Shown piece after piece: positions 9,609-30,178 of a DNA stretch of 64,000 nucleotides. The notes under the pieces were generated by a model. It did no database searches, had not been told where the DNA came from, and was given only the letters and a program-made list of their open reading frames with translations. Position 1 is the stretch's first letter. Every line of letters starts with the position of its first letter. Origin of the DNA: Sandaracinus amylolyticus (GTDB lineage Bacteria > Myxococcota_A > Polyangia > Polyangiales > Sandaracinaceae); contig NZ_CP011125.1 of the NCBI RefSeq assembly GCF_000737325.1, forward strand, positions 7,254,001 to 7,318,000. The letters run 5' to 3'. A program made the translations under genes and the position numbers.

Positions 9609-10407
9609 CGCGATCGAGCGGGCGCACGAGCTGCGCCCGCGCCGAGTCGTCGATCGGCGGCTCGACGCCGAACGCGTCCGGCACGCGGTCGCGCGGCATC
9701 CGGAACGTGCCGAACATCACGTCCCAGATCGCCAGGACACCGCCGAAATTCGAGCCCTGCGCCTCGCGCTCGATCGCGTGGTGCCAGCGATGGAAGTCCG
9801 GCGTCGCGATCACGTATCGCAGCGGCCCGAGCGAGAGCCGCACGGCGCTGTGCAGGTAGAGCGTGTGGAGCAGCAGCGCGGGCCCGATCGCGACGAACAC
9901 CCGCGGGTCGAAGCCGAGCAACAGGATCGGCAGCGTCACCGCGACGTTGTCGACGAGGTCGTCGAGCGGGTGCATGCGCGCGGCAGCGAGCCAGTCGAGC
10001 TCGCGCGCCGAGTGGTGGATCGCGTGGAGCGGAAAGAAGCGCGCGTGATGGCGCGCGCGATGGCTCCAATAGGACACGAAGTCGGCGATGACGATCGCAG
10101 TCGCGAATTGTACGAGCAGCGGCCATCGCCCGAAGGGCAGCGGACTGCGCGCGTGGAACACGTCGAGCAGCGCCGTGAGGTCTCCGAGCCCCAGCGCGAG
10201 CGCGACGAGCGCCGCGAACGTCAGCGTCGCTGCGCGCGTGAGAAAGCCCGTGCCGAGCGGCGTCACGAGCCAATAGAGCCAGTCGACGCGCCGAGCGCGC
10301 GAGAGCACCCGAGGCGCAGGCACCGCGCTCGGCCGGAGACGCTGCGCGAGCGCGCAGAGCGGCGCGATCACGAGGAACCCGACGTAGACGATCGCGAGCG
10401 AGCGCAC
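9595..10407 (-). CDS. Sterol desaturase / fatty acid hydroxylase superfamily membrane enzyme
   Basis: 270 residues. The three histidine boxes of the membrane diiron superfamily are present: HRARHH (HX3HH), HAIHH (HX2HH) and HRWHH (HX2HH), placed between hydrophobic segments. Family members use O2 to desaturate or hydroxylate sterols or acyl chains (ERG3, ERG25). As the last gene of a sterol operon that already has a Rieske/dehydrogenase pair for C4 demethylation, a C5-desaturase-like role is the most attractive guess, but fatty-acyl hydroxylation cannot be excluded. It begins with GTG immediately after the TAG of the radical SAM gene, with no spacing, so it depends on read-through or coupling. 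Confidence 0.85.
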   Translation of the reverse strand: MRSLAIVYVGFLVIAPLCALAQRLRPSAVPAPRVLSRARRVDWLYWLVTPLGTGFLTRAATLTFAALVALALGLGDLTALLDVFHARSPLPFGRWPLLVQFATAIVIADFVSYWSHRARHHARFFPLHAIHHSARELDWLAAARMHPLDDLVDNVAVTLPILLLGFDPRVFVAIGPALLLHTLYLHSAVRLSLGPLRYVIATPDFHRWHHAIEREAQGSNFGGVLAIWDVMFGTFRMPRDRVPDAFGVEPPIDDSARAQLVRPLDRVIRA

Positions 10408-13642: not shown

Positions 13643-14206
13643 TCAGATCTTCCCGCGCGCGAGGTTCCCCACGACCGCCTTCGCGTAGACCTTGAACGTG
13701 CGCGCGACGCTCGTCGCGTCGAGCGTGCTGGACAGCGAGTCGGCGAGCCCGAACGGCAGCATCGCGGGGATCAGCCCTCGTGCGTACTCGAGCGCGAAGC
13801 ACTTGTCGGGCATCCGATAGCCCTTCGCCGCGCCGCGCGGGAGCACGTTGCGATCACCGGGGCGATAGACTTCCTTCTCGAACGAGCCCTCGCGATAGCT
13901 CCACTGCTCGCCCTCGAGGATCATGAAGTGATCCTCGGCCGCGAATCGCCCCGAGAATCCCTCGGTCCCGATCGGCGTGCCGAAGATCATGATGTACTCG
14001 GTGATCGACGAGTGGAGCACCATCATCTGCCCCATCGCGCCGCCGGCGACGTTGAAGATCCACTCGCGATCCTTCGCCGGCAGGATGTGCCCCGGATAGC
14101 GCTCGGAGAGCTCGTTCGCGATCTGCGTGATGATCCCGTCGAGCGGCTGACCGACCGCGCGGCGCGCCACGTCGTGGAGGATCTCGGGCTCGAAGATGTA
14201 TCCCAT
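13643..14206 (-). CDS. ERG2 / sigma-1 receptor-like sterol C8 isomerase
   Basis: 187 residues starting MGYIFEPEILHDVA, the ERG2-type opening. The body matches the ERG2/sigma-1 fold closely: LHSSITEYIMIFGTPIGTEG, SGRF, the cupin-like turn with EGEQWSYREG, PGD, then EYARGLIPAMLPFGLADSL. Known members shift the C8 double bond to C7 during ergosterol synthesis; acidic residues in the barrel act in catalysis. The N-terminal membrane helix of eukaryotic relatives is missing, so this form looks soluble or peripheral. The ATG overlaps the CYP51 stop (TGATG). ERG2 homologues are uncommon in bacteria, and operon position strongly supports a sterol role. Confidence 0.9.
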   Translation of the reverse strand: MGYIFEPEILHDVARRAVGQPLDGIITQIANELSERYPGHILPAKDREWIFNVAGGAMGQMMVLHSSITEYIMIFGTPIGTEGFSGRFAAEDHFMILEGEQWSYREGSFEKEVYRPGDRNVLPRGAAKGYRMPDKCFALEYARGLIPAMLPFGLADSLSSTLDATSVARTFKVYAKAVVGNLARGKI

Positions 14207-15993
14207 CAGTCCGTCTCTTCGATTCGAATCACGTGATTCGGGCAGTACTGCGCGGCCTTCCGCACCTTGTCGTGCAGCTCCGCCGGCGGCCGCGCGACCT
14301 TGAGCATCACCTTGTGGTCCTTGGGGCTGACCGCGAACACCTCGGGCGCTTCGGTCGCGCACACCGCGTGTCCCTGGCACAGATCACGATCGACCTTCAC
14401 GCGCAGCGAAGATCCCGCGCTCGTGCTCGGCGTCGCCGCGACGTGCGCGTGCGCCGGACACCCCGCCGCCGCGGCGGCCTGCTGCACCGCCTGAGGCACT
14501 TCCTTCGCGCCGTTCAGCTCGTGCGCGATCGCGTCCTTGGCCGCCGCCGCGAGCTCGGTGCCCATCTCCATCGTGACGCTCGGCTGCGCGCGCCGGCGAT
14601 AACGAACGCGACAGGGCTCCTTCGGCCCGATCACCAGCCCCTGGAAGCTGGGCGCGATCGCGTCCCCGCACAGGCCGAATTCGAACTGTCCGAGCAAGAG
14701 CGCGAGAATCGCCTTGATCTGCAGGATCGCGAACGCGTTCCCCAGGCACTTGTGGCGCCCGCCGCCGAACGCGATGTACGCGAAGTCCTTCTTGTCCTCT
14801 TCGCGCCCCGGCAGATAGCGATCGGGATCGAACGCGTCGGGATCGCGGAACACGGTCGGAATGCGGTGCGAGACCGTCGGCGACACGACGATCCACGTGC
14901 CCTTCGGGATGAAGAACTGCTTGTACGTGAAGTCCTGCTTCACGACGCGCACGAGCATGAAGAGCGGCGGATGCAGCCGCAGCGCTTCCTTCACCGCGTT
15001 CTCGATCGTCGTCAGCTCGCGCAGCGCGGCGTGGCTGACCGGGCGCCCGCCGCCGAACACCCGATCGACCTCCTCGACACAGCGCTGGAGCTGCGTCGGA
15101 TTCTGCAGCAGCTCGAGCAGCGTCCACGCGGTCGTGACCGAGCTCGTGTGGTGCCCCGCGAAGATCCCCGCGAGGAGCAGCCCGGTGATCTCGTGCTCGC
15201 TGAGCGGCCGACCGTCGGCGTAATTCGACTCCATCAGCGTCTGGAGGAAGTCCTCCCCAGTGCGCTGATGCGCGCGGCGATCGCGGACGATGCCCGTGAT
15301 CATCTCGACCATCCGCACGCGCGCTTTGTCGCGCTTGCGGAAGGCGGGCACCGGCAGGTGAGGATCGATGTACGCGAGCGGCGTCACGCCTCCTTCGAGG
15401 TCGTGATAGACGCGCGCGAACTCCTCGCTCATGCCCTCGCGGAACTCTTTGCCGAGGAGACAGCGGCTCGACGTGAAATTCGTGAGCACGCGACAGAACT
15501 CGACGAAGTCGACGACTCCGCTCGTGCCCCACTCGCGCGTGCTCGCCGCGGTCTCGTGCACCACGGCCTCGCCGTAGGTGCGCATGCGACGATCCTTCAG
15601 CGCGGGCAGCAGCATCTTCAGCTGCTCCGCCATCTTCTCCGGCGTGGCGTCGTAGACGACGTCCTTGCCGAAGACGGGCGTCATGATCTTGTACGCCTCG
15701 GTCGGGCTCAGCACCGCGTCGGGCGCGCGGAACACGGCCTCGTGCGCCTCGGGCCCGAACATCGCGACCATCTCGCGGTTGAACACGCTGAACGCGGCGA
15801 CCTCGCCGAGCTCGCGGTTCGCCCTGAAGAGCAGCTCGATCGTGGCGCGCACGAATTCGACGCTGTGCCCCACCACCGGCAGCCCGCCCGACAGGCGCGG
15901 TGCCGGAAGGAGCCCACTCGGAGCCTCGTCGCGACGGCGCGTCGCGCGACGGACGGTCTCGTCCACCAGACTGCGGAGCTGCATGGGTCCCAT
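14206..15993 (-). CDS. cyp51: Sterol 14-alpha-demethylase CYP51 fused to 3Fe-4S ferredoxin
   Basis: 595 residues. Residues 1 to about 460 are a P450 of the CYP51 type: the I-helix AGIFAGHHTSS, KEALRLHPP (ExxR) and heme loop FGGGRHKCLGN with ligand C416. An Ala-rich linker of about 60 residues leads to a small ferredoxin domain with cysteines C539, C545 and C584 (LCQGHAVC...CPN), the spacing of 3Fe-4S ferredoxins. This is the same arrangement as the Methylococcus capsulatus CYP51-ferredoxin fusion. It removes the 14-methyl group of lanosterol-type sterols and carries its own electron donor. The ATG overlaps the preceding TGA by one base, giving direct coupling to the squalene synthase fusion. 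Confidence 0.95.
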   Translation of the reverse strand: MGPMQLRSLVDETVRRATRRRDEAPSGLLPAPRLSGGLPVVGHSVEFVRATIELLFRANRELGEVAAFSVFNREMVAMFGPEAHEAVFRAPDAVLSPTEAYKIMTPVFGKDVVYDATPEKMAEQLKMLLPALKDRRMRTYGEAVVHETAASTREWGTSGVVDFVEFCRVLTNFTSSRCLLGKEFREGMSEEFARVYHDLEGGVTPLAYIDPHLPVPAFRKRDKARVRMVEMITGIVRDRRAHQRTGEDFLQTLMESNYADGRPLSEHEITGLLLAGIFAGHHTSSVTTAWTLLELLQNPTQLQRCVEEVDRVFGGGRPVSHAALRELTTIENAVKEALRLHPPLFMLVRVVKQDFTYKQFFIPKGTWIVVSPTVSHRIPTVFRDPDAFDPDRYLPGREEDKKDFAYIAFGGGRHKCLGNAFAILQIKAILALLLGQFEFGLCGDAIAPSFQGLVIGPKEPCRVRYRRRAQPSVTMEMGTELAAAAKDAIAHELNGAKEVPQAVQQAAAAAGCPAHAHVAATPSTSAGSSLRVKVDRDLCQGHAVCATEAPEVFAVSPKDHKVMLKVARPPAELHDKVRKAAQYCPNHVIRIEETD

Positions 15994-18900
15994 CACCGTC
16001 CGTTCGCGATCGACGAAGCCGATCCGCTCGCGCGGCGCGCCGTCGCGCCGTCGTCGTAGAGCCGCGCGTACCGAGCGCGCAGCGCGTCGTCGTCGGCGAC
16101 GAAGCGCACGCACTCCGCGATGATCGACTCCACCTCTTCGCGCGAGATCTTCACCGCCTGACCGGGGACGAACATCGCGTCGTTGCCGCGCCCGACGACG
16201 AGCGTCCGCGCCGCCATCCAGAGCGGCAGGAGGCAGAAGAGTCGGATTCCGGTGTGCTGCGGCGGAATCGAGAGCGCATATCGCAGCGCGCCATCGAGCT
16301 GGCGGCGCGCCACGTCGAAGAGCGGCGCGACCGCCGCGTGCGCCTTCGCGCGCACCGCGTCGTCGCAGAGATTCGAGATCGTGATGCCCTGCGCCGCGAC
16401 CGCGGTGCGCGGGACGAAGCTCCACGCGCGCTCGCGATCGTCGGTCACGTCCTTGAGGATGTTCACGAGCTGCAGGCCGGACGCGAACGCCTCCGCGTCC
16501 TCGCGCAGCTTCAGCTCGAGCGCCGCGTCACCGCCGATCTCGGCGACGAACAGGTCGGTCAGCAGATGTCCGACCGTGCCCGCGACGTAATAACAATAGC
16601 GCTCGAGATCGCTCGTCGTGTGCAGCGCGATGAATCCGTCGTCGCCCTTGCGACGGTGCGAATAGAGATTCATCCCGCGCGCCATCTCGCTGACCCAGCG
16701 GATGCACGCGTCCTTCGTCGCGTCGCTCTGCGCGGCGAACACGCGCATCACCACGCGCGAGCGACGCGCGAGCGAGAGCTCGGGATCGTCGTGCTCGATC
16801 GTGTCGAACGCGCGCTCGAACGGCTCGGCATCGGCGCCGTTCTCGAGCACGTCGAGGAACATCGCGAAGAGCCGATCGCGATCGCGCGGATCGACCAGCG
16901 GGTGATCCTCGATCGTGTCCGCGATGCGGCAGAGCAGATAGCCGAGCGTGACCGCGACCTCGAGCTTGCCGGGCAGCATCGCGATCGGCTTGCTGAAGGT
17001 GCGCGACACCTCCGCGAGCGCCTGCTTGCAATAGGCCCAGTCCGCGTCGGCGATCTCGGCCGACACCGACGCGCTCGCCGTGGTCGTGCCCGTCTTCGCG
17101 CGGGTGCGCCCGAGCGCGGGCCGCTCGACGCGGCGCAGGTCGTAGCTCGCGAGCGCCTCACCGACGTCGGCCGCGTCCTGCCACGCGAGGTCCTCGCGCG
17201 CGACCGCGCTGGCGAGCGCGCGCACCGCACGGACCATCGCGTCGCTCGAGGGCGCGCGCGCCGCACACAGCGCACGGACGACCGCCGACGCGTGCGCGAG
17301 CGACGCGCTCTCTCCGGACCACACCGCCGCGTTCGCCGCTAGCCACTTCAGCGCGCGACGCACCGTCGGCTCGCCGGGATTGCCGTCGATCGCGATCAGC
17401 GCGTCGAGCGCGAGCGCAGTGCGCACCACGACGTGCGGCGCGCCGCCGCCGCCGAGCTTCGCGATCGCGGGCCAGCTCCCGTCTTCGCTCTGGCGAGCAC
17501 GGATCCACGCACCCGCGCGCGCGAGCGCGCCCTCGAGGTCCGCGTCCGACGCGCTCGGACGGCGCCGCAGGACGGCGTCGATCGCACGACACGCGAGCGC
17601 GGTCGCCTCGAGATCGCCTTCGTGATCACGCGGGATGTCGCGCGCGGTGCGCGTCGCGAAGCCGCCATGCGACGTCTGACACTCGAGCAGCGCGCGCACG
17701 CCTTCGGCGAGGTCGGTGATCGGCTCTTCGCCCCACGCGGTTCCGTCGAGGAGCAGGAGCAGCAGATCGGCGAGCGCCTCGGTGCGCCACGAGCCGGTCT
17801 CGATCAAGCGCGGCACACCTTCCACGGCGAGGCGACGCCGCGCGATCGTCATGCGCGCGGCCATCGCGGGCCGCATCGTGCCCGACGTGATCACGCGGAT
17901 CATGCGCGCGGCGGGCGCCGCGACCTCCGCGTCGGGAACGCTTCCGAGCACACGCGCGATCGCCTCGAGCTCGGTCAGCAACACGCCGTGCGTGCGCGCC
18001 ATCGCGTCCTGCACCGGCACGTCCGCGGCATCGCTCGCGCGCGGCTCGTCCGCCTCGGGCGGCTGCAGCGGATCGGCCGTGCGCACGAAGCGCGAGAGCA
18101 CGGGGATCGGATGCGTCGGCGTGCTCTCGCCGCGATATCGATCACGCAGTCGGCGCGGAACCGCGATCGCCGCGGGCCACTGCATCCACTCGCCGTACTG
18201 CGAGAGCGCGCCCGGCACGCGGAGGAGATCACCGTCCTTCGTCGCGTCCGCGACGGTCGCGCCGATCGCCTGCGCCGCGATCTTGAGGAACGCGCTGCCG
18301 AAGCTCCGGCGTCGCAGATCCGACGCCGCGAGGATCATCATCGTGCGGCGCCGCTCCGCGTCGCTCGCGCGCAGCGTGCGGAACATCGCGCGGCGCACCT
18401 CCGTCGCGCTCGCGTCCTCGCGGCGGAAGCAGTGATAGAGCGCGTTCGAGAGCAGCTCGGGGATGTACCCGCGGCGCTCGCGCGCGTACTCCTCGACGTT
18501 CGCGGCGCGCGCCACGGCGCGCGCGTCGAGCATGCCCATCGTCATGCCGATCGCGGTCATCGGGTGCACGTGACCGAGCGCGTCGCCGACGAGCATCGTG
18601 TCGCCGCGGCCGAACTCCGCGCGCGGACGGAATCGATTCGCCGCCCAGCCGCTCGGGCCACGCTCGATCGCCGCGCGGAACGCCGGGACCATCTTCGGCG
18701 GCAGCACCGCGTGGAACGCGTCCCAGAGGAAGCCCGGGGTGCGCGCGCGCGCGCCGAGGCTCACCGGCACGTCGAGACAGCCGCGGACCACGTCGTCGCT
18801 GATGCGATAGAAGAGCGCAGGCCCCGGACCGCCGAGCACGACGTGCCCGAATCCCTCGAAGGGCAGCTCGCAATTCCGCAGCTCGACCGCCGCCATGTAC

Positions 18901-19433
18901 GAGAGCAGCGTGCTGTTCTCGCGGTATCCGAGCGACTGCCGCACCACCGATCCGCGCCCGTCGGCGCCGATGATGCGCCCCGCGCGCAGCTCGAACGCGG
19001 TGTGCGACTCGCGATCTTCGCAGCGCAGGAGATCGCCCTCGACGGCGGTCACGCGTGCCATCGAGATCCACTCGATGCCCGGCACGCCACGCGCGACGTC
19101 GCGGATCGCCTCGACGATCTCCGAGTGCTCGGCCGACAAGGCGATGCCCTCGGCATACGGCATCTCGATCGGCGCGCTGCGATCGTCGGGACAGATCACG
19201 AACCCGTAGCCAGTGCGCGCGTGCGCCCCGTCGAGGTGCCCGATCCGCAGCTCGTCGAGCACCTCGACCGCCGTCGGATGGAGCCACTCGCCCGCGAAGC
19301 GCCGCGCGGCGCGCGGATCTGCCTCGAGGAGCGCGACCTTCGCGCCGCGACGCGCGAACGCGATCGCGGTGGTCGCACCGACCGGACCGCCGCCCACGAC
19401 GGCGACGTCGTAGCTGCTTCGACTCGCACGCAT
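15993..19433 (-). CDS. Fusion: squalene-epoxidase-like flavoprotein, degenerate toroid, squalene synthase
   Basis: 1146 residues in one frame. (1) Residues 1 to about 370: FAD monooxygenase with GGGPVGA at 14-20, GEWLHP, and GDALGHVHPMTAIGMTMG, close to the GD...HPLTGGGMT block of squalene epoxidase. (2) About 520-790: helical repeats with QW-like units (CQTSHGGF, RQSEDGSWP) recalling half a terpene-cyclase toroid, but without DXDD or DCTAE, so probably non-catalytic. (3) About 800-1115: squalene synthase with SRTF, DTIED (839-843), YCYYVAGTVGHLL and NILKDVTDD (N991, D995, D999), the two metal-binding motifs. It should join two farnesyl diphosphates to squalene. A GAGG site lies 5 nt before the ATG. 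I know of no described fusion of this kind. Confidence 0.9.
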   Translation of the reverse strand: MRASRSSYDVAVVGGGPVGATTAIAFARRGAKVALLEADPRAARRFAGEWLHPTAVEVLDELRIGHLDGAHARTGYGFVICPDDRSAPIEMPYAEGIALSAEHSEIVEAIRDVARGVPGIEWISMARVTAVEGDLLRCEDRESHTAFELRAGRIIGADGRGSVVRQSLGYRENSTLLSYMAAVELRNCELPFEGFGHVVLGGPGPALFYRISDDVVRGCLDVPVSLGARARTPGFLWDAFHAVLPPKMVPAFRAAIERGPSGWAANRFRPRAEFGRGDTMLVGDALGHVHPMTAIGMTMGMLDARAVARAANVEEYARERRGYIPELLSNALYHCFRREDASATEVRRAMFRTLRASDAERRRTMMILAASDLRRRSFGSAFLKIAAQAIGATVADATKDGDLLRVPGALSQYGEWMQWPAAIAVPRRLRDRYRGESTPTHPIPVLSRFVRTADPLQPPEADEPRASDAADVPVQDAMARTHGVLLTELEAIARVLGSVPDAEVAAPAARMIRVITSGTMRPAMAARMTIARRRLAVEGVPRLIETGSWRTEALADLLLLLLDGTAWGEEPITDLAEGVRALLECQTSHGGFATRTARDIPRDHEGDLEATALACRAIDAVLRRRPSASDADLEGALARAGAWIRARQSEDGSWPAIAKLGGGGAPHVVVRTALALDALIAIDGNPGEPTVRRALKWLAANAAVWSGESASLAHASAVVRALCAARAPSSDAMVRAVRALASAVAREDLAWQDAADVGEALASYDLRRVERPALGRTRAKTGTTTASASVSAEIADADWAYCKQALAEVSRTFSKPIAMLPGKLEVAVTLGYLLCRIADTIEDHPLVDPRDRDRLFAMFLDVLENGADAEPFERAFDTIEHDDPELSLARRSRVVMRVFAAQSDATKDACIRWVSEMARGMNLYSHRRKGDDGFIALHTTSDLERYCYYVAGTVGHLLTDLFVAEIGGDAALELKLREDAEAFASGLQLVNILKDVTDDRERAWSFVPRTAVAAQGITISNLCDDAVRAKAHAAVAPLFDVARRQLDGALRYALSIPPQHTGIRLFCLLPLWMAARTLVVGRGNDAMFVPGQAVKISREEVESIIAECVRFVADDDALRARYARLYDDGATARRASGSASSIANGR

Positions 19434-19455: not shown

Positions 19456-20631
19456 TCAATACACGAAGGGAATCATCTTGAAGGTCGCGCGCTTGCAGTA
19501 CTGCTCCCACAGAGGGCCGTACTTCTCGCGACACTTCTTGTCGTCTCGCCACGCGCGGTGGACGAGCAGACAGATGAGCCAGGTGGGCAACAGGAACGGG
19601 ACGAACGACTCGCCCCACGCCAGCAGCACGAACGACCAATAGACGAGGATCTCGCCCGTGTAGTTCAGCTTGCGGCCGATCCCCCAGAAGCCGGAGACCA
19701 GGATCTTCCCGCCGATCGTCTCCGCGGGACGACCCCAGATCTTCACGCTCGGATCGCGCTTGAACTCGTCCTTCTGCTGGTTCGATCCGCGGAAGATCCA
19801 GAGCCCGAGCACGAACATCAGCGGCAGTGCGACCAGCGCCCAGGGCGGGAGATCACCGGTCTCGTCGACGAGGTACCAGCCCGTGACCGAGTACGCGAAG
19901 GGCACGAATGCGTAGTCACCCCACACGAGCATGAAGCCGAAACGCTCGGCCACGATGTCCCACGTGTAGAGCATTCCGTACTCGAACTGGAAGTAGTTGA
20001 AGACGTACACGAACGTGAACGCCTGATAGAGGATCATCGCCTGCGAGAGCTCGCCGTACTTCGCGTACTGCACCGCGGCGAACGACATGTTCAAGAGCGC
20101 CAGTCCGATCAGCGACGGGCGATAGCTGAACATCTTCGCGTCGAGGCTCATCCACTTCGGATTGAGCTCCACGCCGTACCAGAGGTCCTCGATCAGCCCG
20201 AGCGCGCTCTGCGTGCCCGCCGCGCTCCCGGTCGCGTTGCCGTGCGCGTCGACGCCGGTGATGCGCGGGGTGGGATCGGCGCGGTGACGGTGTGCGCCGG
20301 GCTTGTCCTTGCCGCTCGCGAAGAGCTGCGCCGTCATGACGAACGAGAGCACGTTCGCGGCGACGAAGAGCCCCCAGAAGTGGCGATGCAGCAGCGTGAG
20401 ATCGATGAAGCCGAGCCAGGTCCCGACCGCTGCCAGCCCGGCCGTGATCAGGAAGAGCGCGAGCCCGTTCAGCTTGTACGAGATGCGGCTCCCGTCGGAC
20501 AGCACGACGCCCTGGCGCACCGGTCCTGGCACGATCATCGAGCCGACGAACAGATACAGCACGAACCCCAGCGCGAGCACCGCGCCGAGGAGCAGATTTC
20601 CGAGATCGCTGACGGGAAGAGGAGCGTGCAT
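19456..20631 (-). CDS. Sterol C14-reductase family membrane protein (ERG24/ERG4-like)
   Basis: 391 residues with about nine membrane segments. The family's C-terminal signature is clear: RKLNYTGEILVYWSF, then LLVHRAWRDDKKCREKYG, WEQYC and a final MIPFVY, as in ERG24, ERG4 and 7-dehydrocholesterol reductase. Earlier, GVELNPK and FNYFQFEYGMLYTWDI fit the conserved membrane core that binds NADPH and sterol. Because CYP51 leaves a C14 double bond, C14 reduction is the likeliest job; C7 or C24(28) reduction would need experimental exclusion. It sits 17 nt after the cyclase fusion and 22 nt before the squalene synthase fusion. No clear Shine-Dalgarno is seen before the ATG. Confidence 0.9.
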   Translation of the reverse strand: MHAPLPVSDLGNLLLGAVLALGFVLYLFVGSMIVPGPVRQGVVLSDGSRISYKLNGLALFLITAGLAAVGTWLGFIDLTLLHRHFWGLFVAANVLSFVMTAQLFASGKDKPGAHRHRADPTPRITGVDAHGNATGSAAGTQSALGLIEDLWYGVELNPKWMSLDAKMFSYRPSLIGLALLNMSFAAVQYAKYGELSQAMILYQAFTFVYVFNYFQFEYGMLYTWDIVAERFGFMLVWGDYAFVPFAYSVTGWYLVDETGDLPPWALVALPLMFVLGLWIFRGSNQQKDEFKRDPSVKIWGRPAETIGGKILVSGFWGIGRKLNYTGEILVYWSFVLLAWGESFVPFLLPTWLICLLVHRAWRDDKKCREKYGPLWEQYCKRATFKMIPFVY

Positions 20632-20648: not shown

Positions 20649-23600
20649 TCAGACGTGGAGTCGGCTCGGACGACTCGCGCTCTCGCCGCCGTGCTCGCGG
20701 AACTTCGCTCGCTCGGCGCGGCGCGACTCGTACAGACCGAGCGCCCAGACCGGGAAATAACGGCGATAGAGCACGTAATCGAGCAGCGCCGTGTGGAAGA
20801 AGATCCCCTCGGCCTCCTGCTTCGGCCACGCGCCGTCGTCGGACTGCTTCGACGCGAGCCAGCGCGCGGCGCGCTCGATCGGCGCGAAGTCGGGATGGCG
20901 CGCCTCGAGCAGCGCCGTCATCGCCCACGCGGTCTGCACCGCCTGGCCCTCGTCGTGGTCGACGTAGCGGCCGACGATCACGCTCGAGCGATGCTCGCCC
21001 CACGCGCCGTCGGCGCGCTGACGCTCCTCGAGGAAGCGGCACGCGCGGCGAATGCGTGGATCGTGCGGCGGAACGCCACCCGCGAGCAGGCCGCGCACGC
21101 CGAACATCGTGCCGTACACGAAGTGCACGCCCCACATGCCGGGCCACGATCCATCGGGACGCTGCGTGCGCGTGAGCGACGCGACGGCGCGCGCGATCGC
21201 GGTCTCGCACTCGTGCGCGAGCTCGCTCTGCGGCCAGCGGTGGACGAACGCAGCGAGCGCCGTGACGCACGACGCCGTGCACTCGACATACGACTTCTCG
21301 GTCATCGAGTCGCCGAACATCTCGGCGGGGTTGATCCACTCGAGCGAGACGTCGGTGCGGCGGGCCTCGTAGCTCCCGAAGCCACCATCGGTGTTCTGGC
21401 AGCGCAACACGAAGCGCGCCGCCGCCTCCATCGCTTCGCGCGTCGGGCTCCCCTCGGGCGACTCGAGCCGCGCGAGCATCGCCTCGGCGGTGCAGTCGCT
21501 CACCGGCCATCCGTGCCAGACACCGGCGAAGCAATATCCGCCGGTCGGATCGATGCGATCGTGATGGCGCTCGCGCCCAGTGCCGCGCGGGATCTGCTGC
21601 GTGACGAGGAACGTGTCGGCGCGGCGAAGGGCATCGCGCACGTCGTTCCCGCAGTGCGGCGCGGCCGCGGCCATCGCCTGCGCGGCGAACGCGGTGTCCC
21701 ACGACGCGCTGCGCGCGCCGGTGACGCGCGCGCCGTCGAGCTCGTCCTCCCACACCCATCCTTCGAATCGCTCCGCAGCGATGCGCAGATCGGGATCGTT
21801 CGGATCTTCGATGAACAGCGCGACCTGATCGAGCAGCCCGCTGACCGGGGAGATGCAGGTGTGGTTGGTCGAGCGGAGCTCGTAGCGGATGTGCTCGCGC
21901 AGCTCGGCGAGCACCGTCGCGCGCTTCTCGCGCGACTGCAGGCGATCGACCGCGCCGAGCACGCGATATCCGACGTGCAGCGCAGGAGTCCACGGCGTGT
22001 GGATCTCGGCGGTGCGCAGCGTCTCTCGCGCCTTCGCCCAGTCGACGGACTCCCACCCTCCCGGGAAGATCTCGTCGCGAATCGCGAGGATCCGCGGCGT
22101 GACCGGCGCGCTCCACTTCTCGCCGTAGAGCACGGCCATGCCGAGATAGATGAGGCGCGTGTGGCAGTAGAAGCGGCTCGGATGGAACGGCAGCCAGCGC
22201 GGCGCGCGCCACGCCTCGGGCAATACCGCGCTGACTCCCTCCCACGAGTAGAGGTTCAGCACCGCGAGCCAGAGCTTTCCCCAGCTCGGCACCGCGACCG
22301 CGCCGCCCTCACGGCGGATGAACTCGTGCGCACGCGCGATCAGCGGGTCGTCCTTCGCGAGGCCGAGCAGACGGCACGCGACGAAGACGAGGAGCGTCAC
22401 GAACAGATAGGGCTCGCTCTTCTCGTGCAGGCCCCACGTTCCGTCCGCGAGGCGCGTGCGCTCGAAGTGCTTGAGCACCGACGCGCGACGCTCCGCGCTC
22501 AACGGGCGGCCCATCGCGTGCCAGCCCATCACGTACTGCGCGGCGAGCATCGGGCACCACACGACCTCGCCCTCGAACGAGCCGTCGTCGGCCTGCTCCG
22601 CGATCAGCGCGCGCGCGCCGCGGCGCAGTGAGTCACGCGCGGAGAAGTCCTCGTTGCCCGAGCGCGGCAGTCCGACGACTTCCGCCTTCGCGGTCGACGC
22701 TCGCAGTGCCGCCCCGTATCGCTCCTCCGCGGTGCGCGGGGCGCCGAGGCCCTGCTTCGTGCGCGCGGGCAGCGCGTTCGTGAGGTGCAGCGTGCCTCCG
22801 AAGAGCCACGCCATCCGCTGCCCGAGATCGCTCGCGACGCGCCCGGTGTGGCGCACGTTCCCGGTCGCGATCGCGTCCTTCACGAAGTCGCGCGAGCTGC
22901 GCAGCATCGTGCGGAGGAACGCGCGCCCGAACCCGACGTGACTGCGATCCTCGCCCGAGAGGAACCCCATCGAGCGCAGTCGCTCGCGCGGCTTCTCGCG
23001 CCACAGCTCGTAGATCGCGCGGCGCATCGCGATCGACTCTTCCGCGTCGTCCGCGAACACCTCGTAGAGCCCGACCGCGAGCATCTCGCGCACCCGGGTG
23101 CGGCGCGTGCGCTCGCGCCGATAGGCCGCGAAGCTGGGCGATTTCGCGATCGCGACCGCGTCTTCGAGCGCGAGCGTGAGCCCGATCGCAGGCAGCGGCG
23201 GATGCGTGCCGGCAGCGTCGCCGATCAGCGCGAGGCCTTCGCGCCCGAGGTCACCGCGGGGCCTGAGATCGACGCTCGCCCACGAGGGGGCGCTCTCCGC
23301 GAGCGCACGACCGAACGCCTCGCGCAGACCGTTCGGCAGCACGGCCGAATACGCCTCGAAGAGCGCCACTCCGCCCTCGCGCGGGATCGCGAGCGAGTGC
23401 GGCACTTCGCAGAGCACACGCACACGGTGCGCGTCGATGCGATAGGCCATCACCGGCCCGGGGCCGCCGAGGAAGATGTGCAGGAATCCCTCGAACGGCA
23501 GCGCGTGGTGCTCCACCGCGATCCCGGCGATGCGCGAGCTCGCCGCGACGCCGTGCGCGAGCGGGCCGGGCGACGTCGCGAGCGGCCCCGATGCGACACG

Positions 23601-24086
23601 ACCGCTCGCGCCGATGATCGACGGAGCGCTGACGGTGCGCGAGGTCGTGTGCGACGAGGTCCCGATGCGACGCTCGTACGTGAGGCTCTGTCCCTCGATG
23701 CGCGTCGCGCGCGCCCACGGCACGAGCTCGATGTGCTCGTGGTGCTCGCAGTGCGCGCGCAGCGTCTCGACGAGCACGGCGTGCTCGACCGCCATGCCGA
23801 AATGCCCGGCGGCGTACGGCAGCGCGATGGGCTCGCTGCCGTCCTCGGGGAACACGACGTAGCCCTTGCCGGTCGCGTACGGCGTCGCGGGCGTCAGATC
23901 GACCCCGAGCGAGTCGAGGATCGCGAGCGCCGGCGGATGGAGCCACTCGCCCGCGAGGCGATCCGAGCTGCGCGGATCGGCCTCGAGCAAGAGCACGCGC
24001 AGCCCTCTGCGCGCATGCGCGAGCGCGCTCGCACAGCCCGCCGGGCCGGCGCCGACGATCGCGACGTCGTAGTGCGAGCCGCTCAT
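20649..24086 (-). CDS. Fusion: squalene-epoxidase-like flavoprotein and oxidosqualene cyclase
   Basis: 1145 residues. Residues 1 to about 400 form an FAD monooxygenase with GAGPAG at 12-17, GEWLHP, and GDAAGTHPPLPAIGLTLALEDA, paralogous to the N-terminus of the squalene synthase fusion. From about residue 475 to the end is a full oxidosqualene cyclase: PSWGKLWLAVLNLYSWEG, FHPSRFYCHTRLIYLGM, the catalytic DCTAE at 864-868, QNTDGGFGSYE and other QW repeats. V862 two residues before DCTAE is the lanosterol-synthase-type residue (Ile in cycloartenol synthase), while H858 is the cycloartenol-type His. One chain may therefore epoxidise squalene and cyclise the product. A stand-alone cyclase is the norm; this fusion is unusual. 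Confidence 0.92.
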   Translation of the reverse strand: MSGSHYDVAIVGAGPAGCASALAHARRGLRVLLLEADPRSSDRLAGEWLHPPALAILDSLGVDLTPATPYATGKGYVVFPEDGSEPIALPYAAGHFGMAVEHAVLVETLRAHCEHHEHIELVPWARATRIEGQSLTYERRIGTSSHTTSRTVSAPSIIGASGRVASGPLATSPGPLAHGVAASSRIAGIAVEHHALPFEGFLHIFLGGPGPVMAYRIDAHRVRVLCEVPHSLAIPREGGVALFEAYSAVLPNGLREAFGRALAESAPSWASVDLRPRGDLGREGLALIGDAAGTHPPLPAIGLTLALEDAVAIAKSPSFAAYRRERTRRTRVREMLAVGLYEVFADDAEESIAMRRAIYELWREKPRERLRSMGFLSGEDRSHVGFGRAFLRTMLRSSRDFVKDAIATGNVRHTGRVASDLGQRMAWLFGGTLHLTNALPARTKQGLGAPRTAEERYGAALRASTAKAEVVGLPRSGNEDFSARDSLRRGARALIAEQADDGSFEGEVVWCPMLAAQYVMGWHAMGRPLSAERRASVLKHFERTRLADGTWGLHEKSEPYLFVTLLVFVACRLLGLAKDDPLIARAHEFIRREGGAVAVPSWGKLWLAVLNLYSWEGVSAVLPEAWRAPRWLPFHPSRFYCHTRLIYLGMAVLYGEKWSAPVTPRILAIRDEIFPGGWESVDWAKARETLRTAEIHTPWTPALHVGYRVLGAVDRLQSREKRATVLAELREHIRYELRSTNHTCISPVSGLLDQVALFIEDPNDPDLRIAAERFEGWVWEDELDGARVTGARSASWDTAFAAQAMAAAAPHCGNDVRDALRRADTFLVTQQIPRGTGRERHHDRIDPTGGYCFAGVWHGWPVSDCTAEAMLARLESPEGSPTREAMEAAARFVLRCQNTDGGFGSYEARRTDVSLEWINPAEMFGDSMTEKSYVECTASCVTALAAFVHRWPQSELAHECETAIARAVASLTRTQRPDGSWPGMWGVHFVYGTMFGVRGLLAGGVPPHDPRIRRACRFLEERQRADGAWGEHRSSVIVGRYVDHDEGQAVQTAWAMTALLEARHPDFAPIERAARWLASKQSDDGAWPKQEAEGIFFHTALLDYVLYRRYFPVWALGLYESRRAERAKFREHGGESASRPSRLHV

Positions 24087-24093
24087 CCCGACT

Positions 24094-25227
24094 TCACATC
24101 TGCGCCATCAGGCGCGCAGCGGCCGACTGCACCATCGGCGTGTCGCCGAGCTTGACCATCCAGTCGAGCGCGTCGGTCCGCACGATCCTGCGGAACACAC
24201 CGCCGCCCCAGAACGAGAGTTGGAAGGTCGCGCGACAGGCACGCTCGTAGTCGCGCATCGCGTCCTTCTCGGACAGGCGCCCATTGAGCACGTCCGCGAC
24301 CGCTTCCGCGCCGAGCATGCCCGAGCGCATGCCCTGATAGATGCCCTCGGCCGTCGCCGGGTGCGTCATCAGACCGGCCTCGCCGATCACCACGCGCCCC
24401 GGCGCCGTGAGCTTCTCGATCTCGAGCGACCACACGACCGGATGGCCCTTCCAGCCGCCGATCTGCGTCGCACCCTTCAGGCGCTCTCGATAGTGCTTGT
24501 CGAGGAACTCGGTGAAGAGCTGCCGCGCGTTCTTCTTCTCGCCGTTCTCTCCGTCCTCGTAGGTGATGCCGATGTTCACGCGGCGCTCACCCTCGGGGAA
24601 GAGCCAGCCGTAGTAGGGCTCCACCATCCGATCGAAGATCATCTCGACGTGATGGGCCTTGAACGGGACGTCGTCCCACCACCCCATGATCGCCTGGATG
24701 ACCTTGCGCGGGCGCTGCTCGGGGAGGCCGACGCGGCAGTGCGATCCACCCGCGACGAGCGTGTACTTCGCGCGCACCTCGCGGCCGTCCGCGGCGCGGA
24801 TGCCGACCACGCGGCCGTTCTCCTCGATCGCCTCGGTGACGTGGAAGTCGGGCACGAAGCGCGTGCCGCGCGCGACGGCCTTCTTCAGCAGCACGTGATC
24901 GAGCACGCGGCGCTGACACACGATCGCGGCGCCGACGTCGCCCGCCGACTGCGTGCTGTCGTAGCCGCCCGGCGTGACGATGCGGATGCCCTTGATCCAG
25001 TAGCCGTGCGGCTCGACCTCGTGCCACACGCCGAGCTGCTTCAGCGTCTCGATGCCCTTCGGCGAGACACCGCTGCCGCACGTCTTGTCGCGCGGGAAGT
25101 CGTGCTTGTCGACGAGCACCACGTTGCGCACGCCGAGCGTGCCGAGGTGCGCGGCCGCCGCGGTGCCCGCAGGGCCCGCGCCGAGGATGACGACGTTCGC
25201 GTCGATCTTCTCTGCCACGACGCTCAC
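24094..25227 (-). CDS. Geranylgeranyl reductase family FAD oxidoreductase
   Basis: 377 residues. N-terminal dinucleotide site GAGPAGTAAAAHLG, then DKTCGSGVSPKG and GWLFPEG, and the FAD-pyrophosphate block GEAGLMTHPATAEGIYQGMRSG, all typical of geranylgeranyl-reductase-type flavoproteins that saturate isoprenoid double bonds. In this operon a sterol side-chain (C24) reductase is a reasonable hypothesis, as is reduction of prenyl chains. GTG at 25227 overlaps the Rieske stop (GTGA). GGAGGA lies close to it, so the GTG at 25218 may be the true start. It ends 7 nt before the cyclase fusion. Confidence 0.85.
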   Translation of the reverse strand: MSVVAEKIDANVVILGAGPAGTAAAAHLGTLGVRNVVLVDKHDFPRDKTCGSGVSPKGIETLKQLGVWHEVEPHGYWIKGIRIVTPGGYDSTQSAGDVGAAIVCQRRVLDHVLLKKAVARGTRFVPDFHVTEAIEENGRVVGIRAADGREVRAKYTLVAGGSHCRVGLPEQRPRKVIQAIMGWWDDVPFKAHHVEMIFDRMVEPYYGWLFPEGERRVNIGITYEDGENGEKKNARQLFTEFLDKHYRERLKGATQIGGWKGHPVVWSLEIEKLTAPGRVVIGEAGLMTHPATAEGIYQGMRSGMLGAEAVADVLNGRLSEKDAMRDYERACRATFQLSFWGGGVFRRIVRTDALDWMVKLGDTPMVQSAAARLMAQM

Positions 25228-26402
25228 TCCTCCGCGCCGTCCGCGGCCGCTTCCGCGACACTGGCGCGCTCGAGCGCTTCACGACGCTGCAGTCGGACGA
25301 GCTCGCGCTGCTCCTTCTTCGCGCGCTCGGCCGCGAGGTACTCCTCCCACTTGCGCACGGTGAGCGCTTGGAACGCATTCACCGCGGGGCTGAGCTCGAC
25401 GACGGGCGCGTCCCAGTGACGCTCGTGACCTTCCTGCTCGCCCTGCGTCACGCGACCGTCCTGGCGGAGCAGCGGCTTCACCAGGAGCTCGTTCGAGATC
25501 TTCAGGAACGGGCGCATCACGCGCTTCGGCAGCTTGATCTTCGTGAACGGGACCACGAAGTGATCGAAGTAGAAGAGGAAGAACACGCGCGTCGTGCGCT
25601 CGTCGATCGGGAGCACGAAGAGCCAGTGCTTGATCTTGCCGTCCGTATTCGACCACTGATACGGATACTGATAAGCGAGCTCCATCGAGTTCGTGTCGAT
25701 CGACGCGCGATCCACGAAGAGCCCGCTGATCTTCCCGCGGCCGACCTTCGTGTCGTACGCGAGCTGCACGCTGTCGCCGACGGTCTCGAGCTTCGTCAGC
25801 TTCGCGCCGGTGAACGGCGCGTAGTCGCGATGCAGGAACTCGTGCGTGAAGTCCGAGACGTTGTCGATGATCAGCGAGTGGTGAGCCTGCCAGGTGAAGT
25901 CCACCGGCACGCACTCCCACCGATTGTCGCCCTCGAGCTCCGGGATCTCCGGCATCGGCGTCGCGTCGGCGCGCTCGGGATCACCGAAGAACATCCACAC
26001 GAGGCCGTAGCGAACACGCACCGGGAACGTGCGCAGCTTGCACTGCGGCATCTTCTTGCCGAAGAGCGTGTGCGGCACGTCGACGAGCTCGCCCGCGCCG
26101 TTGTAGCCCCAGCCGTGGTACTCGCAGACGATGCGCTCGCCCGCGACGGTGCCGAGCGTGAGCGGCACCTGGCGGTGCGCACAGCGGTTCTCCACCGCGT
26201 GCAGGCGGCCCTTCTCGTCGCGGTAGAGCGCGGCGGACTGGCCCCAGAACTTCACCTCGACGATCTGCTTCTTCGCGATCTTCGAGTCGTGCTCGACCGC
26301 GTACCAGTAGTTCGGATCGAGGCCCGCGGCGCGGACCTTCTGGCGGCGGTTGGTGGCCTCTTCGAACGACGGCGGGCCCTGGCGCTCTTCCTTGCTCGAC
26401 AT
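25224..26402 (-). CDS. sdmA: Rieske-type oxygenase, SdmA-like sterol C4 demethylase
   Basis: 392 residues. The Rieske cluster motif is CAHRQ...CEYHGW (CXH then CX2H) at about residues 72-93. The catalytic domain has the mononuclear iron region NVSDFTHEFLHRDY with DX2HX4H. This is the ring-hydroxylating oxygenase layout also used by SdmA, which oxidises the C4 methyl group of sterols in Methylococcus. The adjacent upstream gene carries an SdmB-like dehydrogenase, which supports the assignment. GAGGAG is placed 7 nt before the ATG. The C-terminal 60 residues are charged and helical, of unknown role. Confidence 0.85.
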   Translation of the reverse strand: MSSKEERQGPPSFEEATNRRQKVRAAGLDPNYWYAVEHDSKIAKKQIVEVKFWGQSAALYRDEKGRLHAVENRCAHRQVPLTLGTVAGERIVCEYHGWGYNGAGELVDVPHTLFGKKMPQCKLRTFPVRVRYGLVWMFFGDPERADATPMPEIPELEGDNRWECVPVDFTWQAHHSLIIDNVSDFTHEFLHRDYAPFTGAKLTKLETVGDSVQLAYDTKVGRGKISGLFVDRASIDTNSMELAYQYPYQWSNTDGKIKHWLFVLPIDERTTRVFFLFYFDHFVVPFTKIKLPKRVMRPFLKISNELLVKPLLRQDGRVTQGEQEGHERHWDAPVVELSPAVNAFQALTVRKWEEYLAAERAKKEQRELVRLQRREALERASVAEAAADGAEE

Positions 26403-26429: not shown

Positions 26430-29057
26430 TCAGCTGCCGGTCGCGGCGCGATTCGACGACTCCGATGCTGCGGAGTCCGTCGTCGCGCGGGCCGGGGGCG
26501 ACTTGCGCGCTGCGCTCTCCGCGACACCGACGGTGCCGGGGCGCGCGGGGACGAGCCCACGACGCGCGAAGTCCGCGTACGCCTCGTGGATCGCGGTGCG
26601 GATGCTCGTCGGCTCGTAGCCGAGCTCGACCTGCGCCTTCGTGGTGTCCGCGTGGCGCTGCGCGCGGAGGATGCGAATCGCAGCCGGCGTGAAGCGGCGC
26701 GGCGTGCTCGGCGCGAACGTGTCGAGCGCGACCTGGGAGACCGCCGCGATGCCCTGCATCACCGGGCCCGGGATGCGCAGGCGCGGGCGCGGACGACCGG
26801 ACACTTCCTCGAAGATGTCCATGAGGTCGTCGACCGTCGCGAACTGCGTGCTGATGATGTACTTCTGGCCGCGCCGACCGCGGTGCATCGCGAGGAAATG
26901 CCCCTCGCAGATGTCGCGCGCTGCGACGAAGTCGAACCCGCCCGGCGGATACGCGCGCAGTCGGCCGTTCGCATAGTCGACGAGCGTCAGGCCCATGCGC
27001 GAAGGCTTGTAGTCGTGGGGCCCGAGGATCGCGCACGACGTCGCGATCACCGCGTCGAGGCCCTCGACGCACGCCTTCAGCACCTCGTGCTCGACCTGCA
27101 CCTTCGTGCGCGCATAGGGCAGCACGTCATCGAAGGGATAGAAGACGTCGTCTTCGTTCCCGGGGCGCTGCGGGTTCTCGGGGTCGTAGCCGACCGCGCT
27201 GAACGACCCGGTGACGACGACGCGCTCGTAGTGGTTGTCGATCGCGGCGCGCAGCAGGTTCCGCGTGCCGAGGACGTTGCACTCGAAGATGTCGCGCTCG
27301 AGCTCGGGCGTCGCGACGACCGTCGAGACCTGCGCCGCCGCGTGATACGCGGTCGTGCAGCCGCGCATCAGCTCGACGAGGCGCTTGGCGTCGCGGAGAT
27401 CGCCGTAGACCTTCTCGATCTGCAGGCCCTCGAGCGCCTCGTTGTTGCTGCCCTGACGGAGCAGCACGCGCACGTCGCGGCCCTCGGCCAGCAGGCGGCG
27501 CACCAGGTTCGCGCCGAGGTGCCCCGCGGCGCCGGTGACGAAGACCTTGCCGCCGAACTCGCGGTGCGGCTGTCGCTCGTAACGCTTCTGCGTGCCCGAA
27601 TCGCTGCTCGTCATGCTGCTCTCCCCGCTCGTGCTCTCTCCGCTCGACATCGACGCTCGCGCGCTCTCCGGCATCGGAGGCGTCGGCGGGCGGCGCGCCG
27701 GGCGCGTCGTCGTGGGTGTCGTGATCGCGATCGGCTCGACCTTCGCGATCGGCCGCGCGCGCAAGGTCGCGAGCGCTTCCTTCGCGGCGCGCAGGTTCAC
27801 CTCGCGGCGATCGGCGATCGTGTTCGCGACCTGCTCGACCTCGCTGCCCGTCGCGCCGGCTTCGACCGCGACGTTGCGCGCGTGCAGGCGCATGTGACCG
27901 CTCTGGATGCCCTCGGCCGCGAGCGCGCGCAGCGCGCCGAGGTTCTGCGCGAGGCCCGCCGCCGCGACGATCGCCGCGAGCTCCGGCGCGCGCTCGATCT
28001 TCGCGATGCGGCGGTTGACCTGCACCTGCGGGTGCACGCGGATCACGCCGCCGACCGTACCGACCGCCATCGGCAGCGTCATGCGACCGACCAGCGCGCC
28101 GTCCTCCGCACGCCAGCGCGCCATCGCGGTGTAGCGGCCGTCCTGCGCGGCGTACGCGTGCGCGCCGGCCTCGACCGCGCGCCAGTCCTGCCCGAGGGCG
28201 ATCAGGACGGCATCGACGCCGTTCATGATCCCCTTGTTGTGCGTCGCGGCGCGCCACGGGCAGCGCTCGGCGAACACGCTCGCCTCTTCGATGGCGCGCG
28301 CCAGCGCTTCGCCGCTCGAGGCGCCCTGCCCTTCGAGCGCGGAGAACGGCACGCGACCTTCGACGGTCACGGTGCGCCGATCGGTGAGGTTCGAGAGGAT
28401 GCGCAGCGCGACGCGGCCCCCGGTGAGCTCGGCGACGCGCGGCGCGAGGCGCTCGCACATCGTGTTGATCGCGTTCGCGCCCATCGCGTCGCGCACGTCG
28501 ACGACGAGGTGCACGACCATCATCGCGCCGCACGGATCGTCCTCGCCGAGGCGCGCGAGGTGTCGGATCTCGACGTCGCGCGCGCCGCCGCCCGCGGCGG
28601 TCAGCGAGGGATGACCGGAGTTCGCGCTCGCGATCAGCTCGTCCTTCGCGGCGAGCACGGCACGCTCGGCGACCTCCGGATCCGGCACCTCCAGCACCTG
28701 GATCTGCCCGATCATCACGGGCTCGCTCACGGTCGCCCGCACGCCGCCGCCGGCGCGCAGCAGCTTCGACGCGTAGCTCGCGGCGGCGATCACGCTCGGC
28801 TCCTCGACCGCCATCGGCGCGAGCACGTCGCGCGCCGGCTCGCCGTCGAGCGCGATGCGCATGTTCACGCAGAGGCCGAGCGGCATCCCGAGCACGCCGA
28901 GCGCGTTCTCGACCATGCGATCCGCCTGCCCCTCGGCGAGGCCGCGATCCGGCGAGAGCGACGCGAGCTCGTCCTCGCGCGCCCCGATCACCTGCGCGAC
29001 GCGCGCGCGGCGATCCCGCATCGAGAGCCGATAGAACCCCGAGAGCTCGCTCGTCAC
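26430..29057 (-). CDS. Fusion: class II HMG-CoA reductase and SdmB-like NAD(P) dehydrogenase
   Basis: 875 residues. Residues 1 to about 425 are a class II HMG-CoA reductase: ENALGVLGMPLGLCVN, RDAMGANAINTMCE, the catalytic lysine block THNKGIMNGVDAVLIALG and the late GHMRLHARN with the catalytic His. A Pro/Thr/Ser linker of about 70 residues follows in frame. From about 500 is an extended short-chain dehydrogenase with GAAGHLG (509-515) and PYARTK (YX3K), of the 3-beta-HSD/SdmB type that works with SdmA in C4 demethylation. One chain thus joins the mevalonate-forming step to a late sterol step. GTG start, GGAGG 7 nt upstream, GTGA overlap with fni. Met codons inside the linker could allow a separate second product. 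Confidence 0.92.
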   Translation of the reverse strand: MTSELSGFYRLSMRDRRARVAQVIGAREDELASLSPDRGLAEGQADRMVENALGVLGMPLGLCVNMRIALDGEPARDVLAPMAVEEPSVIAAASYASKLLRAGGGVRATVSEPVMIGQIQVLEVPDPEVAERAVLAAKDELIASANSGHPSLTAAGGGARDVEIRHLARLGEDDPCGAMMVVHLVVDVRDAMGANAINTMCERLAPRVAELTGGRVALRILSNLTDRRTVTVEGRVPFSALEGQGASSGEALARAIEEASVFAERCPWRAATHNKGIMNGVDAVLIALGQDWRAVEAGAHAYAAQDGRYTAMARWRAEDGALVGRMTLPMAVGTVGGVIRVHPQVQVNRRIAKIERAPELAAIVAAAGLAQNLGALRALAAEGIQSGHMRLHARNVAVEAGATGSEVEQVANTIADRREVNLRAAKEALATLRARPIAKVEPIAITTPTTTRPARRPPTPPMPESARASMSSGESTSGESSMTSSDSGTQKRYERQPHREFGGKVFVTGAAGHLGANLVRRLLAEGRDVRVLLRQGSNNEALEGLQIEKVYGDLRDAKRLVELMRGCTTAYHAAAQVSTVVATPELERDIFECNVLGTRNLLRAAIDNHYERVVVTGSFSAVGYDPENPQRPGNEDDVFYPFDDVLPYARTKVQVEHEVLKACVEGLDAVIATSCAILGPHDYKPSRMGLTLVDYANGRLRAYPPGGFDFVAARDICEGHFLAMHRGRRGQKYIISTQFATVDDLMDIFEEVSGRPRPRLRIPGPVMQGIAAVSQVALDTFAPSTPRRFTPAAIRILRAQRHADTTKAQVELGYEPTSIRTAIHEAYADFARRGLVPARPGTVGVAESAARKSPPARATTDSAASESSNRAATGS

Positions 29058-30178
29058 TGGCGCGCCTCCGCATCCACGACACCGGGCATCGCAGCGCCCG
29101 GCGCGATCGCGCGCACCGCGCGCAGCTCCGCGACGTCACGCGCGCCGCAGCAGAACGCGATCACCTTCAGCTCGAAGATCAGCGTCTCGAGCACCCGCAC
29201 CACTGCGTCCTCGCTCTCGTCGGCCGCCGCGAGCAGCGGCTTCGCGAGCGCGGCCGCATCGGCGCCGAGCGCGATCGCGACCGCGACGTCCATGCCGTGG
29301 CGCACGCCGCCCGAGGCGATCACGGTGCGCGCATCTCCGAGCGCGCGTCGGCAGATGCGCACGCTCTCCGCGGTGCTCACGCCGAAGCCCGCGAGCCGCT
29401 CGCCGACCTCGGCTTGCATCGACGCGGCCGGTGCGCGGTGGCTCTCGACGCGCGCCCACGACGTGCCGCCGGTGCCCGCGACCTCGACGCCGGCGAACGG
29501 AAGACGCGCGATCTTGCGCGCCGCGCGCTCGCTGATCCCTGCGCCGACTTCCTTCGCGATCGCCGGCACACCGAGCTCGGGCAGCGTGCCCTCGAGCCGC
29601 GCGATCAAGCCCTTGAAGCGCGTGTCGCCCTCGGGCTGGATCGCTTCCTGGAGCGCGTTGAGGTGCACGTCGATCGCATCCGCGCCGACGCGCTCGATCG
29701 CGCTGCGGATCTCCGACGTCCCGACGCCGTAGTTGAGCTGCACCGCGCCGACGTTCGCGATCAGGAGCGGCAGCTCCGGCGCGCTCGCGCGCACGTCGAA
29801 CGTCGCGCCGAGCTCGGGGCGAACGATCATCGCGCGCTGCGAGCCCAGCGCCATGCCGAGGCCACAGCGCGCGGCCGCGCGCGCGAGGCGACGATTGACG
29901 AGCCCGGCGCGATCGGTGCCACCGGTCATCGCGCCGACGAGGATCGGCGCGCGCAGCTTCTTCCCGAAGAGCGTGACGGAGAGATCGACGTCCTCGAGAT
30001 CGACCTCGGGCAGTGCGTCGTACTCGAGCGTCCATCCGCCGAGCCCGGTCGCTGGGCCCCGAGAGCCGACGTCGGCGCGCAGACAGAGATCGAGATGATG
30101 GTCTTTGCGCGTCGAGATGAGCTCGCGCGCGCTCTCGATACCGCTCGTCGTCGCGACGTTCCCCAAACGCACCTCCAC
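29054..30178 (-). CDS. fni: Type 2 isopentenyl-diphosphate isomerase
   Basis: 374 residues. FMN-dependent IDI-2 signatures appear in order: STRKDHHLDL, GAMTGG, HLNALQE, KEVGAGIS, GTGGTSWA and SGGVRHG. It interconverts isopentenyl and dimethylallyl diphosphate, which feeds the farnesyl diphosphate needed by the squalene synthase further down the operon. This is the promoter-proximal gene of the 14-gene run. GTG at 30178 has GGAG 4 nt upstream; a second GTG at 30172 has better spacing. The next gene starts inside its stop codon. Confidence 0.95.
   Translation of the reverse strand: MEVRLGNVATTSGIESARELISTRKDHHLDLCLRADVGSRGPATGLGGWTLEYDALPEVDLEDVDLSVTLFGKKLRAPILVGAMTGGTDRAGLVNRRLARAAARCGLGMALGSQRAMIVRPELGATFDVRASAPELPLLIANVGAVQLNYGVGTSEIRSAIERVGADAIDVHLNALQEAIQPEGDTRFKGLIARLEGTLPELGVPAIAKEVGAGISERAARKIARLPFAGVEVAGTGGTSWARVESHRAPAASMQAEVGERLAGFGVSTAESVRICRRALGDARTVIASGGVRHGMDVAVAIALGADAAALAKPLLAAADESEDAVVRVLETLIFELKVIAFCCGARDVAELRAVRAIAPGAAMPGVVDAEARQ

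Follow-up and report, generated by a model that had tools for sequence, protein, structure and literature searches.

An HMG-CoA reductase fused to an SdmB-type dehydrogenase in the sterol gene cluster of Sandaracinus amylolyticus, and longer multi-enzyme chains in its relatives

The window, by which we mean the whole stretch of 64,000 nucleotides analysed here from Sandaracinus amylolyticus, holds a sterol gene cluster in which one open reading frame joins a class II HMG-CoA reductase (HMGR) to an extended SDR of SdmB type. S. amylolyticus is a cholesterol producer, and the main text of PMC12004948 describes it as using SdmAB, inferred there, for C-4 demethylation, and as encoding a GGR-family sterol C-24 reductase (Bsr) in its sterol cluster. 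The order along the minus strand is IPP isomerase, HMGR-SdmB, SdmA-type Rieske oxygenase, GGR-type reductase, squalene epoxidase-oxidosqualene cyclase (SE-OSC), ERG24, squalene epoxidase-squalene synthase (SE-SQS) and the ERG2-like gene, and the features are as follows.

29054..30178, minus strand: type 2 IPP isomerase (TIGR02151, E 2e-106), overlapping the start of the fusion by 4 nt
26430..29057, minus strand: HMGR-SdmB fusion gene of 875 aa, GTG start at 29057 and stop at 26430 (profile matches; conserved in five other genomes)
27753..29057, minus strand: class II HMG-CoA reductase domain, aa 1-435 (PF00368, TIGR00532, PDB matches, catalytic motifs)
27549..27752, minus strand: linker of 68 aa, rich in Ser, Pro and Thr, aa 436-503 (from its composition; predicted to be disordered)
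27678..27692, minus strand: RPPTP motif of the linker, aa 456-460 (linker comparison)
27612..27614, minus strand: possible internal start, ATG at codon 482, with GGGGAG 6 nt upstream
26553..27548, minus strand: extended SDR domain of SdmB type, aa 504-835 (NF052578, identity to Calothrix, tree)
25224..26402, minus strand: SdmA-type Rieske oxygenase (NF052579, E 1e-123, under the curated cut-off)
24094..25227, minus strand: geranylgeranyl-reductase family protein (TIGR02032), matching the published C-24 reductase Bsr (PMC12004948)
20649..24086, minus strand: squalene epoxidase-oxidosqualene cyclase fusion, 1145 aa (Pfam and NCBIfam profiles)
19456..20631, minus strand: ERG24-type sterol C-14 reductase (PF01222, E 5e-77; candidate ATG at 20631)
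15993..19433, minus strand: fusion of squalene epoxidase, an unassigned region of about 300 aa and squalene synthase, 1146 aa (profile matches)
13643..14380, minus strand: ERG2/sigma-1-receptor-like sterol C8 isomerase (PF04622, E 1e-73)

Some features of the surrounding cluster can be noted in passing. The middle region of about 300 aa in the 15993-19433 protein (minus strand) has weak similarity to terpene cyclases, the protein itself is conserved across Sandaracinaceae, and a gene without Pfam match at 14384-15532 (minus strand) has been kept beside the sterol cluster in four related genomes (G002, G004, G005 and G007). At 9595-10407 (minus strand), not far from the cluster, a protein of the fatty acid hydroxylase family is possibly a sterol C-5 desaturase or similar. 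Squalene epoxidase and oxidosqualene cyclase are joined in one frame also at a Calothrix rhizosoleniae locus (L015).

The earlier note on this DNA had described a single polypeptide of near 93 kDa with a Pro/Ser linker of about 70 residues, and a single stop-free frame of 875 aa indeed lies at exactly the coordinates that it gave, on the minus strand, which it had not named, with a predicted mass of 93.5 kDa and a linker of 68 residues. The complete class II HMGR that the note saw is there as well. The N-terminal half passes the class II profile TIGR00532 of NCBIfam over its full length (343.6 bits, cut-off 260) and matches HMG-CoA_red of Pfam at aa 13-393 (E 8e-98), its nearest solved structures by sequence are PDB 6dio (E 1e-114) and 1qax (E 3e-109), and the catalytic Glu, Lys, Asp and His and the nucleotide motif are all present (VEEPSV, THNKG, GQDWRAVEAG, GHM and DAMGAN). 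AlphaFold modelling of the fusion (13 sequences, pTM 0.49) gave a good HMGR, an only moderate SDR and a disordered linker with a pLDDT of about 30. The fused HMGR is not the only one of the genome. A standalone copy, which falls in a different clade of the HMGR tree, is found at 1.0 Mb in a separate mevalonate operon together with an FPP-synthase-like protein, mevalonate kinase, diphosphomevalonate decarboxylase and a phosphomevalonate-kinase-like protein. The fused HMGR is therefore a second copy dedicated to the sterol cluster, and not the sole supply of mevalonate.

The C-terminal half, in which Pfam finds Epimerase/3Beta_HSD from about aa 505, has the glycine-rich motif and the YxxxK that the earlier note had pointed out, and its active-site residues are intact (GAAGHLG at 509-515, TGSFS with S618, and YARTK, i.e. 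Y648xxxK652). Its closest solved structure by sequence is 3wj7. The best NCBIfam model is that of SdmB (NF052578, 300.6 bits, E 2e-89), but the curated cut-off of this model is 600 bits, and we therefore call the half SdmB-type and not a certified member of SdmB. Since the SdmB homologue of Calothrix rhizosoleniae also stays under the cut-off (326 bits), the latter seems to be specific to methanotrophs. It could be argued from the low score, from a match to the HpnA model (228 bits) and from the lack of SdmA in three relatives that the half is another extended SDR, HpnA-like or of some other 3-beta-HSD type. We find this very improbable, because the SdmB model is the best one and scores the half far above the other SDRs of the genome (304 bits, with 196 for the next), which makes it the only SdmB candidate there; because an SdmA-type gene adjoins it, as the earlier note had observed; because PMC12004948, in its main text, assigns SdmAB to S. 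amylolyticus; and because the half is 62% identical to the SdmB-like protein of C. rhizosoleniae, whose locus also carries an SdmA-like gene. In the tree the SdmB halves and this Calothrix homologue form one clade with a support of 100/100; the NCBIfam model stood in for methanotroph SdmB, of which the tree contains no sequence.

The fusion of the two domains in one frame is real and not an assembly error. Chance stops are rare in DNA with a high GC content, and 33% of shuffled versions of the GC-rich linker stay free of stops, so that the open frame of the linker would by itself be weak evidence against two genes having been joined by a sequencing or assembly artefact. The same one-frame fusion is however found in five other Sandaracinaceae assemblies (G002, G003, G007, G008 and G009, the present genome being G000), which span several genera and in which both halves are 61-97% identical, and these independent genomes leave such an artefact with a practically negligible probability. 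One of these copies is found again in the MAG record SHBB01000200.1, whose contig equals that of G009 in length and is probably the same record, and in G004 the contig breaks inside the linker. The fusion of G002 is 95% identical to the present one, without indel in the linker, and dN/dS between the two is 0.10 for the HMGR and 0.13 for the SDR; both halves are thus under purifying selection. Wider searches, of a plasmid collection, of 57 genomes sampled over the whole phylum and of 38 genomes related to G073, turned up no further HMGR-SdmB fusion.

More elaborate fusions do occur in other Myxococcota. In G073 (JANQQN010000400.1) HMGR, FPP synthase (FPPS), squalene synthase (SQS) and SdmB follow each other in a single frame of 1579 codons, and after this frame come SdmA, a GGR-type reductase and SE-OSC. 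The same four-enzyme gene is likely present in G075, where an HMGR-FPPS frame leaves one contig and an SQS-SdmB frame starts another, as the two contig ends repeat the same approximately 40 residues. G074 has HMGR-FPPS-SQS as far as the end of its contig, and HMGR-FPPS fusions are found in G076, G077 and G016. The HMGRs of these longer fusions and those of Sandaracinaceae form one clade (100/98), and the sister of that clade, L078 from G070, is likewise an HMGR-FPPS. At L057:3468-8869 of G016 the HMGR-FPPS is followed by a fusion of squalene synthase with a terpene cyclase that is squalene/hopene-like, and among the more distant HMGRs there are fusions with a mevalonate-type GHMP kinase in G103 and G115 (L169:717-2981 and L171:529-2940).

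In all intact fusions, HMGR-FPPS-SQS-SdmB included, the linker that precedes SdmB contains RP[P/F]xP, in G003 as RPFTP. For the strict form RPPxP in five linkers the product of the shuffle probabilities is about 1e-8, a figure to be read with the fact that the motif was picked afterwards. HMGR-SdmB is most likely, as far as can be judged from the sequences, the remnant of a longer HMGR-FPPS-SQS-SdmB chain from which FPPS-SQS was lost. The simplest history would start with HMGR-FPPS, to which SQS and SdmB were added, and FPPS-SQS would then have been lost in Sandaracinaceae, where squalene synthase is supplied by another fusion; the HMGR tree by itself leaves the order of loss or gain of FPPS-SQS unsettled. 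One could go further and imagine a Myxococcota family of sterol multi-enzyme polypeptides, with up to four enzymes in a chain in addition to the SE-OSC and SE-SQS fusions, that form a physical sterol-making complex with the RPPxP linker as docking site, but this we regard as rather doubtful.

The frame need not give one product only. It might also, or mainly, give a free SdmB by initiation within the linker, and the fusion would then be a by-product of the loss of a stop codon between neighbours in an operon. The ATG at codon 482 has a pairing energy of -7.9 kcal/mol with its upstream GGGGAG, which is like real starts, and in G007 there is a GGAGG 5 nt before the linker ATG. The linkers of G000 and G002 also differ little at synonymous sites. 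This value lies only at the 2.3rd percentile of operon windows, and we have rejected it as proof of an internal start and keep it as a weak hint of a signal at the level of DNA or RNA. Taken together, these observations make a second, free SdmB product possible in some species. On the other hand, 12% of internal in-frame ATGs have sites as good as or better than codon 482, the RPPxP motif common to the linkers is a feature of the protein and argues for a linker that is translated, and in G003 no ATG lies between the two domains, so that a separate SdmB would there need a GTG without Shine-Dalgarno. We think it unlikely, but worth keeping in mind, that the frame also or mainly yields free SdmB, and prefer the reading of a single fused protein.

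As such a protein, the N-terminal class II HMGR would make mevalonate, and the C-terminal SDR would act as an NADP-dependent dehydrogenase/decarboxylase together with the neighbouring SdmA to remove C-4 methyls. The flexible linker would join two domains with unrelated substrates, each of which most likely works on its own, and the gain would most likely be co-expression at a fixed ratio from one start. Direct channelling between the halves is implausible because the HMGR and SdmB steps have no common intermediate. The earlier note had suggested that such a fusion would tie supply to demethylation, both enzymes using NAD(P)H, and it is true that most of the Sandaracinaceae examined have kept the two halves together, with their active sites intact. 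A coupling of this kind, whether by shared cofactor, proximity or feedback, does nevertheless not agree with the distance between the two steps, with the second, free HMGR of the genome, or with the partners of HMGR, which vary in the relatives (FPPS, FPPS-SQS, FPPS-SQS-SdmB and, more distantly, GHMP kinase). Nor are the halves inseparable. G005 and G006 have an intact HMGR beside a degenerate SDR without YxxxK, and no full-length SdmA was found in the genomes of G007, G008 and G009, although their fused SDR is intact. The two halves are thus not obligate functional partners, the suggestion of the earlier note is not upheld, and we consider coupling very unlikely.

In G005 the linker is rich in repeats and contains a stop, so that the degenerate SDR has a frame of its own, and in G006 the degenerate SDR is still fused (L052:7225-8130 and L053:1580-3865). 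The SdmA-like Rieske proteins of G003 and G005 are only distant ones. The relatives without SdmA may have another oxygenase partner; we considered whether PF04116 could mark a different C-4 oxygenase in these genomes and dropped it, since it is too widespread to be informative. Our preferred explanation, which we hold to be probable, is that the gene encodes a genuine bifunctional HMGR-SdmB in a cholesterol operon, with independent domains that are co-expressed, and that it is derived from a longer chain; the translation as one chain, the two activities and the evolutionary order are what we infer from the sequences.

Sterol synthesis in bacteria is relevant to the question of how eukaryotes acquired their sterols, and its enzymes have mostly been tested as separate parts. 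It seems partly to be built from fused multi-enzyme proteins, and early committed, middle and late enzymes in single myxobacterial chains point to a different organisation of the pathway. The set of fusions can be read as a series of evolutionary intermediates, and those who wish to produce sterols may find in it natural constructs of several enzymes. It is also a caution for tables of homologues, which may conceal an SdmB within a gene named HMG-CoA reductase.

Fusions of HMGR are already known. MvaE of Enterococcus is a natural fusion of acetyl-CoA acetyltransferase and a class II HMGR, but it joins near-consecutive steps and has its HMGR at the C-terminus, whereas here the HMGR is N-terminal and its partner acts far downstream. 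A Pfam scan found no thiolase domain in the present fusion, which is thus not of the MvaE type. The sterol cluster of S. amylolyticus shown in Fig. 2 of PMC12004948 is apparently the same as ours, with the GGR-type C-24 reductase, and the main text of that paper mentions neither HMGR nor fusion or fused proteins. HMGR-SdmB and the four-enzyme chains go unmentioned also in the main texts of the open-licence sterol papers, an absence that is no proof, and they are apparently unreported in the literature searched. The methods of PMC10070321 note SMO-OSC fusions, which are sterol-enzyme fusions too, with one in the window at 20649-24086, but these join consecutive steps and contain no HMGR or SdmB. 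The SdmB proteins of methanotrophs, Enhygromyxa and Calothrix treated in PMC10202945 are like our SDR in fold, catalytic motifs, best profile and SdmA neighbour. That paper describes SdmB as a protein on its own and does not speak of any fusion, and the C. rhizosoleniae homologue is a free frame of 348 aa, whereas in S. amylolyticus the SDR follows an HMGR in the same frame, as its C-terminal half.
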